Assembly: GCF_023556315.2 (NCBI RefSeq)
Contig: NZ_CP116221.1
Location: 3,672,001-3,736,000, forward strand
DNA: 64,000 nucleotides
Direction: 5' to 3'
DNA from: Psychroserpens ponticola
Lineage (GTDB): Bacteria; Bacteroidota; Bacteroidia; Flavobacteriales; Flavobacteriaceae
Part shown: positions 24,668-30,831 of the stretch, in pieces
Position numbering within the stretch: position 1 is the first letter of the stretch
How the letters are laid out: the number at the start of each line of letters is the position of its first letter
Program-made: the position numbers and the translations under genes
Notes under the pieces: model-generated
What the model saw: the letters and a program-made list of their open reading frames with translations, nothing else
The model's database searches: none
Told to the model about the DNA's origin: nothing

Positions 24668-25732
24668 TTAAGACTTCATCGTTTCAAAAATATTTCTCAA
24701 ATCCTTTTTATAAGGCAAATGATCTGCTCTTCCCTTCTTGAAGATATCATTACTATTTCCTTGGCCTTTTCGCAATGCTTTTTGCTCCTCAAAAGGCAGT
24801 CTATTGATTTCCATACAGTTTGAAGAACAACAATTTTCCATGTGTTCTTTACAATCATCACACTGAATAAATAATAAATGACATGCTTCATTTGCGCAAT
24901 TAGTATGCAAATCTGCAGGCTTACCACATTGATGGCAGTTTGCAATAACATCATCTGAGATGCGTTCAGATCGACGTTCATCAAATACAAAGTTCTTACC
25001 TAAGAATTTATTTTCTAAATCATTAGCTTCTACTTGTCGTACATAGTTAATAATTCCTCCTTCTAACTGAAATACATTTTTAAATCCTTTGTGTTTGTAA
25101 TATGCGCTCGCTTTTTCACATCGAATTCCACCAGTACAATACATCACTAGGTTTTTGCCTTCTTTATGTTCTCTAAGATCTTCTTCAATAAGGTCTAAAG
25201 ATTCTCTAAACGTATCTACATCTGGCGTAACTGCGTTTTTAAAATGCCCTATTTCGCTTTCATAGTGATTACGCATATCGACCAAAACTGTATTTGGATC
25301 TTCAATTAAGTCATTAAATTTTGAAGCATTTACATGAACGCCTTTATTTGTAACATCGAAGGTATCATCATTTAAACCGTCAGCAACTATTTTATGACGC
25401 ACTTTAACTTTCAACTTTAAGAAAGCAAAATTATCATGCTCTACAGCAATGTTTAATCTTACGTTTTCTAAAAAAGAAATCGTGTCTAAATGATTTTTAA
25501 AAGGTTGAAAATTTTCTGCAGGTACAGAAAGCTGAGCATTAATGCCTTCTTTTGCAATATAAATTCTGCCTAAAACGTCAAAATCGTTCCAAGCTAAAAA
25601 CATATGGTTTCTAAAAATTTCTGTATTGCCAATTTTGGCGTACTTGTAGAAAGAGATAGTTAAGCGTTCTTTTCCCGCTTTCTCTATAAGTTCTGCTCTT
25701 TCTTTAGCACTTAAGTTATTGTACAGTTGCAT
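24668..25732 (-). CDS. trhO: tRNA uridine(34) hydroxylase TrhO (rhodanese-domain)
   Basis: TrhO (YceA family), 354 aa, makes 5-hydroxyuridine at wobble position 34 of tRNAs using oxygen. It has an N-terminal acylphosphatase-like domain (about 25-120). The rhodanese domain has catalytic Cys199 in MYCTGGIRCEKA and the block GFKNVFQLEGGI. The C-terminal extension has a cysteine-rich cluster: CHQCGKPADLHTNC, CHLLFIQCDDC and CCSSNC. Such a tail is known in Bacteroidota and other TrhO proteins and may bind zinc. The ATG at 25732 agrees with the family start. The gene has its own promoter-like TACCTTTG upstream. Confidence 0.9.
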   Translation of the reverse strand: MQLYNNLSAKERAELIEKAGKERLTISFYKYAKIGNTEIFRNHMFLAWNDFDVLGRIYIAKEGINAQLSVPAENFQPFKNHLDTISFLENVRLNIAVEHDNFAFLKLKVKVRHKIVADGLNDDTFDVTNKGVHVNASKFNDLIEDPNTVLVDMRNHYESEIGHFKNAVTPDVDTFRESLDLIEEDLREHKEGKNLVMYCTGGIRCEKASAYYKHKGFKNVFQLEGGIINYVRQVEANDLENKFLGKNFVFDERRSERISDDVIANCHQCGKPADLHTNCANEACHLLFIQCDDCKEHMENCCSSNCMEINRLPFEEQKALRKGQGNSNDIFKKGRADHLPYKKDLRNIFETMKS

Positions 25733-25792: not shown

Positions 25793-25828
25793 TAATTTTT
25801 AATAGAACATCGAATCGTTACAACAAAA

Positions 25829-25860
25829 AAAGCCTTTTAGACGATCTAAAGGGCTTTTTT
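25829..25860. terminator. Strong bidirectional-type hairpin between trhO and the 30-aa ORF
   Basis: A 13-bp stem (25829-25841 with 25845-25857, one G-T pair) around a CGA loop, flanked by A-run and T-run. It could end minus-strand transcription from the small ORF before it enters trhO. Confidence 0.75.
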
Positions 25861-25922
25861 GAGGACTAACTCGTTATTAATATTTTTAATTTGATCTTAA
25901 AAATATATTCCGAGTTAACCTC
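25861..25922. repeat. Long hairpin overlapping the stop of the 30-aa ORF
   Basis: The outer arms are GAGG plus TAACTCG with CGAGTTA plus CCTC. After a short internal loop, ATATTTTTAA (25880-25889) pairs with TTAAAAATAT (25897-25906). The structure includes the stop codon of the small minus-strand ORF. No T-run follows it directly. Structured RNA is possible; this is inference. Confidence 0.5.
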
Positions 25923-26007
25923 CATCGGCTTTACAGTTGCTGTTTATATGTACAGCTGCTGAAACACCTAATGCATTATTAAAAATAATTTTTCTAAAAA
26001 ATTTCAT
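25915..26007 (-). CDS. Possible 30-aa peptide gene
   Basis: An ATG-to-TAA frame of 30 codons on the minus strand. The peptide begins MKFFRKIIFNNALGV, is basic then hydrophobic at the N-terminus, and ends NSNCKADGG with one cysteine and a terminal Gly-Gly. Its stop codon lies inside a long hairpin, and a strong terminator follows. It is the only plausible coding sequence in the 450 bases between trhO and recA. I do not recognise a family with certainty, and no promoter match was found upstream. It could be a secreted or signalling peptide, a leader peptide, or chance. Confidence 0.4.
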   Translation of the reverse strand: MKFFRKIIFNNALGVSAAVHINSNCKADGG

Positions 26008-26123
26008 TCCAATTACAAGAATTAAATTTAAGTGGATACGTCATATAACTGACCTTTTTCATAACAAGATTTCCCAATCTCAATTGGTAGATGCAAAATG
26101 TTGAAAAAGGTTGCGTCAGAAGA

Positions 26124-27188: not shown

Positions 27189-27202
27189 AATAAATTGACT
27201 TA

Positions 27203-27229
27203 AAAAATCCCTTAATAGGGATTTTTTTA
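27203..27229 (+). terminator. Rho-independent terminator of recA
   Basis: AAAAATCCCT pairs with AGGGATTTTT around TAAT, ending in a T-run. It begins about 15 bases after the recA stop. Confidence 0.88.
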
Positions 27230-27304
27230 TTTTTAGACGCAACCTTTTAGTAATTATTGTATCTATATAGCAATTAAGGTATGTATTGCCTAAATATTAA
27301 TTAT

Positions 27305-27718
27305 ATGAAGAAATTGCTTTTATTAAGTTTTTTAATCTGTACAGTATTGTCTTGTAGTCCTAATGATGATGATAATTCATCAAATTTTTACTATGAAACT
27401 TTACCGATTGAAAGTGTTATTATGCCAACAGAGTTTCAGTTGGGTGTCACTTATGAAATAAAAATGACTTACATAAAACCTTCTGGTTGCCACGTATTTA
27501 ATGATTTTTATTATTTAAGTGAGCTTAACCAAAGAACAATTGCAATTATCACAACCGTTTTTCCAGATCAAAATTGTGAAAACATTGAAGAGGAAGTAGA
27601 AGTAACTTTAAATTTCAATGTAAATGACCTTAATCCATATGTATTTAGATTTTGGCAAGGTGAAGACGATAATGGAAATGACACCTACTATGTTATAGAA
27701 ATTCCTGTAGTAGACTAA
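27305..27718 (+). CDS. Small lipoprotein, unknown function
   Basis: A 137-residue protein with a lipoprotein signal peptide and lipobox VLSC (Cys17), followed by an acidic stretch SPNDDDNSS. In Bacteroidota, acidic residues after the cysteine often mark surface export of the lipoprotein. The rest looks beta-rich, with two cysteines in SGCHVF and DQNCENIEEE that might form a disulfide. The frame starts at 27281 but the ATG at 27305 gives the signal peptide. It lies 33 bases before the sigma-factor gene, so it could be transcribed with it. No named family recognised. Confidence 0.75.
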   Translation: MKKLLLLSFLICTVLSCSPNDDDNSSNFYYETLPIESVIMPTEFQLGVTYEIKMTYIKPSGCHVFNDFYYLSELNQRTIAIITTVFPDQNCENIEEEVEVTLNFNVNDLNPYVFRFWQGEDDNGNDTYYVIEIPVVD

Positions 27719-27751: not shown

Positions 27752-28294
27752 TTGAGTTTAGAACAACTCATAGCACAATGTAAAAAAAATGATGCTCAGG
27801 CTCAAAGTCAAATATATAAGCTCTTTGCGAGTAAACTGTTTTCGATTTGCTTGAAGTATTCACGTAACTATGCTGAAGCTGAAGATAATTTGCAGGATGC
27901 ATATATTACCATTTTTAAAAAAATAGATCAGTTTAAAAGCAAAGGCTCTTTTGAAGGATGGTTGAAAAGAATAACAATTAATACAGCCTTACAACGCTAT
28001 AGAAGTACTGGTGTTTTTAACATAATTAATGAAGATCAAATTGAAGATGTCTCTGTTGAAATTGATGATGACACTATTAGTTTAGATTTTTTATTGCAAA
28101 TCATTCAAGAGCTACCTGATCGTTACAGATTAGTGTTTAACCTGTATGCTCTAGATGATTTCTCTCATAAAGAAATCGGTAAAATGCTTGACATTTCAAT
28201 AGGTACATCAAAATCAAATCTTGCAAGAGCTCGATTGATTTTGAAAAATAAAGTAGAACAATACAAGGCGAATAGTAATTCGCAAAGTTTATAA
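27752..28294 (+). CDS. ECF-type RNA polymerase sigma factor
   Basis: Sigma-70 family extracytoplasmic-function sigma factor, 180 aa. Region 2 (about 20-88) contains YAEAEDNLQDAYITIFKKIDQF and GSFEGWLKRITINTALQRYR. Region 4 (about 118-172) contains LPDRYRLVFNLYALDDFSHKEIGKMLDISIGTSKSNLARAR. It directs RNA polymerase to a specific promoter set, normally held back by a partner. Here the partner is probably the next gene, whose ATG overlaps this stop by one base. The start appears to be TTG (27752), giving the usual MSLEQLI opening, as no ATG fits. A TACGTTTG at 27747-27754 resembles a -7 element but overlaps the start codon. Confidence 0.92.
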   Translation: MSLEQLIAQCKKNDAQAQSQIYKLFASKLFSICLKYSRNYAEAEDNLQDAYITIFKKIDQFKSKGSFEGWLKRITINTALQRYRSTGVFNIINEDQIEDVSVEIDDDTISLDFLLQIIQELPDRYRLVFNLYALDDFSHKEIGKMLDISIGTSKSNLARARLILKNKVEQYKANSNSQSL

Positions 28295-30015
28295 TGAACG
28301 AAAAAAAGAATATAGATAAACTCTTTAAGGAGCAATTCAAAGATTTTGATGTTGCACCTAAAGATCATGTCTGGGAAAATATAGAAGAAAGACTTCATGA
28401 GGATAAACGTAAACGACGTATTATTCCTATTTGGTGGAAAGTTGCAGGAATTGCTGCTGGCTTAGTTCTTTTATTTGCTGTTGCCAATCAAGTTTTTAAT
28501 ACAACTAACACCAATACTGTTTCAAAAGATATTATTGTTGATGACACTAATTCAGAAAATGACAAATCTCAAGATGAAACAAACGTATTAGAACAACATG
28601 ATGCATCAAAAATAATTTTAGAAAACGATACAGAAGAACAAATTGTTGATACTAATTCTAAATCATCTGCTGAAGAAGAGGAGTCTTCAACAAATAAAAA
28701 CAACGTAATTAAATCAAATGATCAAGTACACTCTGTAATAGTTTCAGACAATTCTGATAACAAAAACCTCAAAGACAAAAATCAAAACAATAGTCCTTCG
28801 ACTACTAATGATTACAAAAAACTACTTGAAGAAAAGAAACGTCCAAATCAGAAACCATCAACTAAGAATGCAATAGTAAGCTCAACAAAAGCACCTACTA
28901 AAACCAATCAAAATAACAAAAATTCGGTTAAAGAGAAATCAGAAATTGATGAGATGCTTAAATCAAACTCAACAGAAACCAGTACTAAAAATGCTGTTGC
29001 AAGTACGACTAAGACATCAACTAAAACAAATCAGATAGATCAAAATAAACTTAAGGATAAATCAGAAATTGATGCCCTAATGGAATCTACTAAAACTGAA
29101 AACAAAACGTCTGTTGCTGATGCAAATACAAAAGACAAAAATGCATTAGAAAAAGAAAATTCAGAAGTTGAAAATAAGTCAATATTAGACACTCAAAATA
29201 AGGAAGAAGAAAAAGAGAAAGAAGCGAATGCCATAGAAAACGCTATTGCTGAAGCCGAAGATACAGATGAAAAAGAAGAAGAGGAAGAGAAACTAAACAG
29301 GTGGAGCGTTTCTCCAAGCGTTGCGCCTGTTTATTTCAGTTCATTGGGTGAAGGCTCACCTCTAGACAGTCAATTTATAGAAAACACTAAAGAACAAGAA
29401 ATTAATATGAGTTATGGTGTTAACGGAAGTTATGCTGTCAACAAAAAACTAAAAATTAGAGCAGGAATTAATAAGGTGCAGTTAGGGTATAAAACAAATG
29501 AAATTTTAATTTTTGAAAATACAAATCCTGTTGCTCATGGAAGACGACAAATTGCAAATGTAAACTTAGTGGATAGTATGAGTAAACATTCCATTTACAG
29601 TGCAAGAAATTTTAAATTTGATAATGCTCCTGCAACTTTATTTACTCAAGAACGTGGCGCTTTAGATCAACAACTTGGCTTTGTTGAAGTTCCAATTGAA
29701 CTCGAATATAATATTATTGAAAATAAAATAGGTCTAAATCTTATTGGTGGTTTTAGTGCGCTATTCTTAAGTGAAAATGATGTGTATGCCGTTTTAAATA
29801 ATGGTGAACGTACACGTTTGGGCGAAGCTACCAACATTAAAGATTTAAGTTATACAGCTAATTTTGGAATTGGTGTAGATTATAATTTTTCAAAACAGCT
29901 TCAATTCAATCTTGACCCTACATTTAAGTATCAAATAAATACATTTAACAATACATCTGGTGATTTTAAACCATTTTTTATCGGTTTATACACTGGACTC
30001 AGTTTTAAATTTTAG
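28294..30015 (+). CDS. Candidate dual-membrane-spanning anti-sigma factor with C-terminal outer-membrane beta-barrel
   Basis: A 573-residue protein whose parts suggest it crosses both membranes. Residues 1-46 are cytoplasmic and charged (FKEQFKDFDVAPKDHVWENI), as in anti-sigma N-termini. Residues 47-67 (IWWKVAGIAAGLVLLFAV) form one membrane helix. Residues 70-334 are low-complexity Asn/Lys/Glu/Ser/Thr with a duplicated 34-residue unit, fit to cross the periplasm. Residues 335-573 look like an outer-membrane beta-barrel with alternating strands, ending in an aromatic residue (GLSFKF). The start overlaps the sigma-factor stop by one base. This is the architecture described for Dma1 and its sigma factor Das1 in Bacteroides thetaiotaomicron. 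The anti-sigma role is inferred from layout and context. A plain porin-type envelope protein is the alternative. Confidence 0.8.
   Translation: MNEKKNIDKLFKEQFKDFDVAPKDHVWENIEERLHEDKRKRRIIPIWWKVAGIAAGLVLLFAVANQVFNTTNTNTVSKDIIVDDTNSENDKSQDETNVLEQHDASKIILENDTEEQIVDTNSKSSAEEEESSTNKNNVIKSNDQVHSVIVSDNSDNKNLKDKNQNNSPSTTNDYKKLLEEKKRPNQKPSTKNAIVSSTKAPTKTNQNNKNSVKEKSEIDEMLKSNSTETSTKNAVASTTKTSTKTNQIDQNKLKDKSEIDALMESTKTENKTSVADANTKDKNALEKENSEVENKSILDTQNKEEEKEKEANAIENAIAEAEDTDEKEEEEEKLNRWSVSPSVAPVYFSSLGEGSPLDSQFIENTKEQEINMSYGVNGSYAVNKKLKIRAGINKVQLGYKTNEILIFENTNPVAHGRRQIANVNLVDSMSKHSIYSARNFKFDNAPATLFTQERGALDQQLGFVEVPIELEYNIIENKIGLNLIGGFSALFLSENDVYAVLNNGERTRLGEATNIKDLSYTANFGIGVDYNFSKQLQFNLDPTFKYQINTFNNTSGDFKPFFIGLYTGLSFKF
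28858..29082 (+). repeat. Duplicated 34-codon unit in the disordered linker
   Basis: Codons 28858-28959 and 28981-29082 encode related units: STKNAIVSSTKAPTKTNQ with KEKSEIDEML, and STKNAVASTTKTSTKTNQ with KDKSEIDALM. They are 123 bases apart. The duplication lengthens the predicted periplasmic linker. Confidence 0.8.
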
Positions 30016-30060
30016 GTTTTTTAGTTGGTTAGATAGTTATTGTTGATTACAATAGCGCTT

Positions 30061-30092
30061 AAAAAGCTACTCTGTGCCAAGAGTGGCTTTTT
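30061..30092. terminator. Hairpin terminator between convergent genes
   Basis: A 13-bp stem (30061-30073 with 30080-30092, one G-T pair) around GTGCCA, with A-run on one arm and T-run on the other. It can serve both the beta-barrel gene and the acyltransferase gene. Confidence 0.75.
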
Positions 30093-30831
30093 AGTTTTTA
30101 TGAAATTCTAATAATTGGTTTAAAATTAAAGAATGTGATTCTTTATTTAGATTTCTAGTATCTTCAACGGCTAATCCTTCAGTAGTGATGAATTTATGAA
30201 CTTTAGCTCTCATTAAACCTGGACTTCCACTGAAAAATGTATATGAAAATCGTTTTTTGTTATCACCAAAAGTGATGGGAACAATAGGAATATGATGATT
30301 TATAGCCATTCTGAAAGCACCATCTTTAAATGCATCTAAAACAATACTTTCATCTGGAACGCCTCCTTCAGGAAAAATACAGATACTCATGCCTTGCTTT
30401 AATCGTCGTTGGGCTCTTAAAAAAACAGCTTGTCTACTTTTAGGATTACTTCTATCTACCAAAATGCTCGTCCGTTTATAGAAAAATCCAAACAATGGTA
30501 TTTTAGCCAGCTCTTTTTTACCGACAAAAACAAATGGGTTTTTTGATGCTACCAACATAAGCATTATGTCTGCCATAGAAGTGTGATTAGCAATAAACAT
30601 GTAGCTTTTTGATGCTTCAGGAATTTGTGCTCTTTCAATTTTAACACGAAATCCCATTCCTATTAAAATAAAACGAGCCCACAAACGAGCAATTCTAAAA
30701 AAGAAAGGATACCATGATTCCTTAAGAATAGAAATAACCAATATTGGAAATAGAATAATTATAGGAAGTGCTACCAAAATGTAGAACCAGATGCGATATA
30801 AAACCCAAAAGATGTACTTAAATAGCTTCAT
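30091..30831 (-). CDS. 1-acyl-sn-glycerol-3-phosphate acyltransferase (PlsC family)
   Basis: Inner-membrane acyltransferase, 246 aa, that makes phosphatidic acid from lysophosphatidic acid. Catalytic motif I NHTSMAD (His and Asp), motif II around ILVDRSNPKSRQ and motif III FPEGGVPDE are visible. The N-terminus has two hydrophobic stretches (about 5-42). The frame opens at a TTG (30840); the ATG three codons later is preferred. Some family members acylate ornithine lipids or other lysolipids instead, so substrate is inferred from the family. A TAAATTTG promoter-like element lies just upstream. Confidence 0.88.
   Translation of the reverse strand: MKLFKYIFWVLYRIWFYILVALPIIILFPILVISILKESWYPFFFRIARLWARFILIGMGFRVKIERAQIPEASKSYMFIANHTSMADIMLMLVASKNPFVFVGKKELAKIPLFGFFYKRTSILVDRSNPKSRQAVFLRAQRRLKQGMSICIFPEGGVPDESIVLDAFKDGAFRMAINHHIPIVPITFGDNKKRFSYTFFSGSPGLMRAKVHKFITTEGLAVEDTRNLNKESHSLILNQLLEFHKN

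Follow-up and report, generated by a model that had tools for sequence, protein, structure and literature searches.

A lipoprotein, ECF sigma factor and probable dual-membrane anti-sigma factor operon in Psychroserpens ponticola, with a predicted promoter and target set

The stretch of DNA analysed here, called the window, comprises 64,000 nucleotides of Psychroserpens ponticola contig NZ_CP116221.1. Downstream of recA it carries genes for a small lipoprotein, an ECF-type sigma factor and a protein with the layout of the dual-membrane anti-sigma (Dma) factors. The features of this locus, in window coordinates, are as follows:

27202–27227, plus strand: terminator-like hairpin after recA, parting recA from the operon (terminator scan)
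27237–27265, plus strand: predicted ECF-type promoter ACGCAACC-N14-GYATCTA of the lipoprotein–sigma–Dma operon, in the recA–lipoprotein gap
27305–27718, plus strand: lipoprotein of 137 residues with Cys 17, the conserved operon partner (start codon picked by alignment)
27752–28294, plus strand: ECF sigma factor gene, 180 amino acids, TTG start
28294–30015, plus strand: dual-membrane anti-sigma (Dma-type) gene, 573 amino acids, ATG start
28294–28428, plus strand: cytoplasmic stub, presumed anti-sigma domain, residues 1–45 (predicted model, linkage, conservation)
28429–28509, plus strand: membrane helix, residues 46–72, preceded by DKRKRR (positive inside)
28510–29289, plus strand: disordered periplasmic linker, residues 73–332 (predicted model, low conservation)
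29290–30012, plus strand: predicted 8-strand OmpA-like outer-membrane barrel, residues 333–573, last residue F (model, structure match)
30059–30094, plus strand: terminator-like hairpin after the operon (terminator scan)

The gene order is thus recA, hairpin, promoter motif, lipoprotein, sigma, Dma and hairpin, and the lipoprotein, sigma and Dma genes form one operon behind an ECF-type promoter. Between 25600 and 30150, five terminator-like sites are seen, against 1.8 expected from shuffles. In the open reading frames of the window, the sigma stop and the Dma start share one base within TAATG, as the sequence-only reading had claimed (27752–28294 against 28294–30015). Relatives keep this exact one-base overlap in 25 of 29 cases, as do 35 of 79 named loci; at the remaining 44 named loci, stop and start are 0–3 bases apart in 43 and overlap by four bases in one. 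The sigma protein, of ECF type, matches Pfam Sigma70_r4_2 (3e-15) and Sigma70_r2 (9e-15); no ECF21 model is among its matches in the profile libraries used. Its start codon is TTG in 15 and GTG in 15 of 30 loci, and TTG in 42 and GTG in 37 of 79 loci, two sets that overlap and in which ATG does not occur. This conserved weak start may keep the level of sigma below that of the anti-sigma.

Dma homologs are present in 37 of 57 relatives (E ≤ 0.001), and such conservation speaks against a chance arrangement; the earlier observation is confirmed. By rank, they occur in 23/23 genomes of the genus (its own genome included), 10/11 of the family's other genera and 4/23 of the order's other families. 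Among the best 80 of 481 named-genome matches, from which the window's own record is possibly absent, the nearest relatives are Psychroserpens and two MAGs, followed by other Flavobacteriaceae such as Winogradskyella; the host group of this Dma-kind protein is probably Psychroserpens or close to it. The neighbourhood is kept as well: in the 79 named loci with both sigma and Dma, the lipoprotein is found in 78, recA in 76, TrhO in 69 and plsC in 77, counts to which some contigs contribute less by ending early. The operon lipoprotein is predicted to be a β-sandwich (mean pLDDT 90.9); its model has no PDB match at E ≤ 0.001 and its sequence no Pfam family. A NigD identity was considered and rejected, there being no Pfam NigD match at E ≤ 5; the one weak, sub-threshold match in NCBIfam is to a non-NigD family.

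The sequence-only reading had described the 573-residue protein as a cytoplasmic stub, one helix at 47–67, a disordered linker of 265 residues and a C-terminal barrel at 335–573, and had proposed a full-chain structure prediction. That prediction, made with AlphaFold2 on 30 sequences, has a mean pLDDT of 57.9 over the whole chain and a pTM of 0.44, and bears out this layout with small shifts. The stub contains helices at 6–14 and 24–35, with pLDDT of 50–70. The membrane helix is single and placed at 46–72, with its N-terminus inside and DKRKRR just before it. The linker, of 260 residues, is mostly at pLDDT 30–45 (residues 71–256 and 262–311 are below 50) and so is disordered for the most part, with short predicted helices at 254–264 and 313–322. 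The barrel region, 333–573, has block means of pLDDT of 58–94 and eight strands, and the top Foldseek matches of the model are to the OmpA transmembrane domain (E 1.8e-6, probability 1.00). The only Pfam match of the protein is likewise to a barrel, PF13568 (E 4e-5), at 24.3 of 27 bits and hence under the curated cut-off. On this modelling, the barrel is predicted to be an outer-membrane domain.

Conservation follows the same division: over 29 relatives, mean identity to the window protein is highest in the stub (0.71), followed by the barrel (0.62) and the helix (0.54), and drops to 0.20 in the linker. The linker is free in sequence and long throughout, with 164–278 residues (median 204) in the 79 named loci; in the 30-row alignment its length is 96–266, the value of 96 being that of relative L038. 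A C-terminal phenylalanine is the mark of a barrel-assembly signal, and the last residue is F in 79/79 named relatives.

The stub defines a wider family. In a search with a 21-row stub alignment, 135 of 395 genomes from the phylum give a match (E ≤ 0.001), and 62 distinct stub sequences are present at 68 stub loci, which comprise the best matches and 20 picked by hand rather than at random. At all 68, the gene directly before the stub is an ECF sigma gene, and this linkage, with the published cases, leads us to presume that the stub is an anti-sigma domain that binds sigma. Natural sigma–stub fusions were sought as a route to a model of the interface; there are none among the 68 loci. The linkage bears also on the idea that the protein is simply a tethered outer-membrane protein whose sigma neighbour is incidental. 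A barrel and a tether could indeed be structural, but the constancy of the upstream sigma gene, the overlapping or nearly touching sigma stop and Dma start, and the retention of the sigma gene where the stub carries other heads make this explanation extremely improbable.

These heads are of several kinds: the one-piece barrel, a two-gene build, a short helical tail, and long proteins with Plug and VWA domains. In the two-gene build, the stub belongs to a protein of about 250 residues, and the next gene encodes a separate exported protein. Six such partners were tested against PF13568: two reach its cut-off, two match below it and two, including that of the window's own genome, have no barrel match. 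The own-genome example is a paralog at L308 (G000:C1:355000–361000) with an ECF sigma factor, a 262-residue stub protein and a 365-residue exported-looking protein, and the same gene order is found in six other genomes of the family, chosen for it. That this own-genome build has a separate barrel is a guess from gene order. The long stub anti-sigmas are found at L309–L315, and the two that were tested (L311 and L314) carry TonB-receptor Plug and VWA domains; that of L314 also has a type IX sorting tail, which is odd for an inner-membrane protein. At L066:1327–2301, one protein following an ECF sigma gene has two tandem stub matches.

The promoter motif accompanies the operon in the relatives. 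Within 900 bases upstream of sigma, the loose form occurs in 75 of the 79 named loci and the strict form in 58, with none for a reversed control; in 20 loci from less close genomes of the family and order, the corresponding numbers are 10, 3 and 0. Perfect motifs amount to 111 sites in 30 of the 57 relatives, and the reversed pattern is found at none in all 57. Each of these 30 genomes also has a Dma match, seven of the 37 genomes with such a match lack the perfect motif, and none of the 20 genomes without a match carries a site; the Fisher value of 7e-10 for this association ignores kinship, which inflates it, since 23 of the 30 genomes belong to one genus and all 30 to one family. The window's own genome holds four perfect, six one-mismatch and ten two-mismatch sites, against eight at up to two mismatches for the reversed control. 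The two-mismatch sites were set aside, as several are inside genes and the control is high (8 vs 20).

Could another ECF sigma factor of the genome read ACGCAACC-N14-GYATCTA? The genome has 29 listed Sigma70_r2 matches, and related ECF sigmas may share −35 boxes; by eye, the two-gene paralog operons show GGCAACC at −35 and CGTCTW at −10. Against this, the sequence read before sigma lacks ACGCAACC in 7/7 two-gene operons, and the motif stands before the present sigma not only in the 75 named loci but also in L220, where no match to the lipoprotein was found. When compared by eye, none of the other sigma matches of the genome falls within 30 kb of its ten sites with at most one mismatch. We thus consider it improbable that a different sigma is the reader.

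A comparable proposal exists for Flavobacterium psychrophilum, in which THC0290_1774/1773, an ECF/anti-sigma pair, is assigned motif SM6 as its own; the SM6 list includes a YceA rhodanese, a regulatory RNA and type IX secretion genes (PMC9723704). Like the present pair, it is a flavobacterial ECF pair behind its own proposed motif. SM6 was at first favoured as the motif of the present pair, given the YceA rhodanese and the ECF pair, but this reading was withdrawn because the two-gene paralog operons show, by eye, a CGTCTW −10 box, to which the CGT −10 box reported for SM6 is closer than it is to GYATCTA.

A second perfect copy of the motif lies on the other side of recA, where the features are as follows:

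26088–26116, minus strand: second perfect promoter motif, reading toward TrhO (24668–25732)
25915–26007, minus strand: 30-codon open reading frame ending CKADGG, 80 nt downstream of this motif
25826–25860, minus strand: terminator-like hairpin before TrhO (z −3.70)

The hairpin at 25826–25860 is absent from the terminator scan, which permits no mismatch. Because it intervenes, the site is a doubtful promoter for TrhO, and it is likelier that it drives a short transcript with the 30-codon frame. The pattern C[KR][AV]DGG of this frame occurs in 23 of 68 loci, and its third-position changes are in excess (2650 vs 1670 and 1484). Rfam gives 15 weak matches on the TrhO side in E-value mode and none at the gathering score.

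To predict targets, 54 of the 111 perfect sites were assigned to the recA/sigma locus by position and the other 57 (55 in relatives, two in the own genome) were examined together with three one-mismatch sites of the own genome, for a set of 60 loci. At 56 of these, an open reading frame of at least 60 codons lies within 500 bases, and four loci are without one. By a crude rule all 56 products look exported and 26 are lipoprotein-like; the same rule applied to the window's open reading frames gives 15/48 and 3/48, respectively. Orthologs recur among the targets, so the 56 are not independent. They group as TonB-receptor family proteins (17), a small NTQCD lipoprotein (15), lipocalin-like lipoproteins (6), a 661-residue exported protein (3) and others (15). 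Sites with one or two mismatches in the own genome also lie ahead of type IX sorting-tail proteins and a TonB receptor. The sequence-only reading had left the regulon open; it is now narrowed to a predicted promoter and target set.

The presence of a TonB receptor among the predicted targets brings to mind FecR-type cell-surface signalling, in which an outer-membrane event likewise reaches an ECF sigma factor. There, however, the TonB receptor and the anti-sigma are separate, whereas here there is one protein. The anti-sigma has its own 8-strand barrel and no FecR-like Pfam match at E ≤ 1, so signalling of this type is a very remote prospect.

Three of the four sites without an open reading frame share a conserved stretch of about 80 nt whose terminal hairpin is variable in sequence (L173:1868–2029, minus strand; L131:201–365, plus strand; L135:1865–2029, minus strand). 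This stretch is a candidate small RNA under this sigma. A Flavo-1 RNA (RF01705) lies above the gathering score at L173:1816–1890, minus strand, where it overlaps or just follows the hairpin; none was found in L131 or L135.

The kind of system is already known from gut bacteria. A Dma protein consists of an N-terminal anti-sigma domain, a membrane helix, a long disordered tether and a C-terminal barrel, its gene adjoins an ECF21 sigma gene, and Dma2 of Bacteroides thetaiotaomicron sits in a three-gene operon (PMC13088901). The likeness to Dma1/Das1 proposed earlier is supported at the level of architecture, and extends to Dma2/Das2: stub, helix, disordered tether and barrel stand beside an ECF sigma factor (PMC13088901). 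The present protein differs in its flavobacterial host and in the third gene of its operon, a small lipoprotein without a Pfam family, and it is likened to these by architecture, not by direct sequence comparison. A pair of similar layout from Phocaeicola vulgatus, reported in 2022, is named EcfO–Reo in a 2026 paper; its inducers are the antibacterial toxins BcpT and bacteroidetocin A, induction also upregulates the pair itself, and its regulon includes lipoproteins (PMC9308784, PMC13114119). Bacteroidetocin A inhibits BamA (PMC9308784). As in EcfO–Reo (P. vulgatus/Bacteroides fragilis), the anti-sigma is a single protein whose predicted course runs through the periplasm to a barrel in the outer membrane; the present operon has a promoter motif of its own, and lipoproteins are among the predicted targets. 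In contrast to the NigD lipoproteins reported in the EcfO–Reo regulon, a sample of nine predicted targets has no NigD Pfam match at E ≤ 0.01. We found no flavobacterial Dma member described in the open-licence literature searched, and the founding PNAS 2024 paper may cover flavobacteria. What appears to be new is the predicted ECF-type promoter on the lipoprotein–sigma–Dma operon together with the predicted target set, by which a known kind of system may be made testable in a new group.

Computation supports the gene order, the coupling, the architecture, the conservation, the promoter motif and the exported targets. We propose, with a probability of about 0.75, that the protein is a flavobacterial dual-membrane anti-sigma of the Dma and Reo kind, which senses outer-membrane damage or failed barrel insertion and then frees sigma. 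The stub would keep the ECF sigma tied to the inner membrane, the linker would cross the periplasm, and the barrel, a client of the barrel-assembly machine, would be seated in the outer membrane. As long as the barrel is inserted, sigma would stay bound; upon outer-membrane damage, or with a barrel left uninserted, the anti-sigma would be inactivated and sigma freed. The freed sigma would transcribe its own lipoprotein–sigma–Dma operon from ACGCAACC-N14-GYATCTA, the position of the motif suggesting self-amplification, and also genes for surface lipoproteins, a TonB receptor and secreted proteins.

Alternatively, the same protein might respond to a mechanical signal, with linker tension reporting membrane spacing or a movement of the outer membrane such as blebbing. 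The linker is long, is disordered and varies little in order of length, and B. thetaiotaomicron releases more vesicles when Dma1 or Dma2 is lost (PMC13088901). By the usual dimensions, though, a stretched chain of at least 164 residues, as in the 79 named loci, would exceed the width of the periplasm and so be slack at ordinary spacing, an argument that the 96-residue linker of L038 weakens; moreover, the covalent link is missing in the two-gene builds. Tension therefore seems to us an unlikely signal. A sensor of barrel assembly is favoured on three grounds: a BamA inhibitor induces the published relative, the barrel ends in the same residue in all 79 loci, and most relatives have a linker that exceeds what ordinary membrane spacing requires. 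None of these amounts to proof: the link to BamA is by analogy with the published relative, and L038, with its short linker, speaks against the third. To judge from the sequences of the two-gene builds, a covalent tether may not always be needed.

It is tempting, as a more tentative extension, to regard the stub as a general anti-sigma plug that Bacteroidota have joined to different envelope sensors, with one-piece and two-gene builds, each behind its own ECF promoter, in one cell; we hold this to be possible rather than probable. If it were true, the tether would be optional, the arrival of the barrel at the outer membrane would be what is sensed, and the barrel would serve the barrel-assembly machine as a sacrificial test client. 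With a one-piece build and a possible two-piece build both present in the genome, the role of the tether could be tested. For the dual-membrane anti-sigma itself, the genus-wide operon, the compact promoter of fixed spacing and the predicted regulon would allow its signal to be tested with a simple reporter, and thus bear on how Bacteroidota relay an outer-membrane event to a sigma factor.
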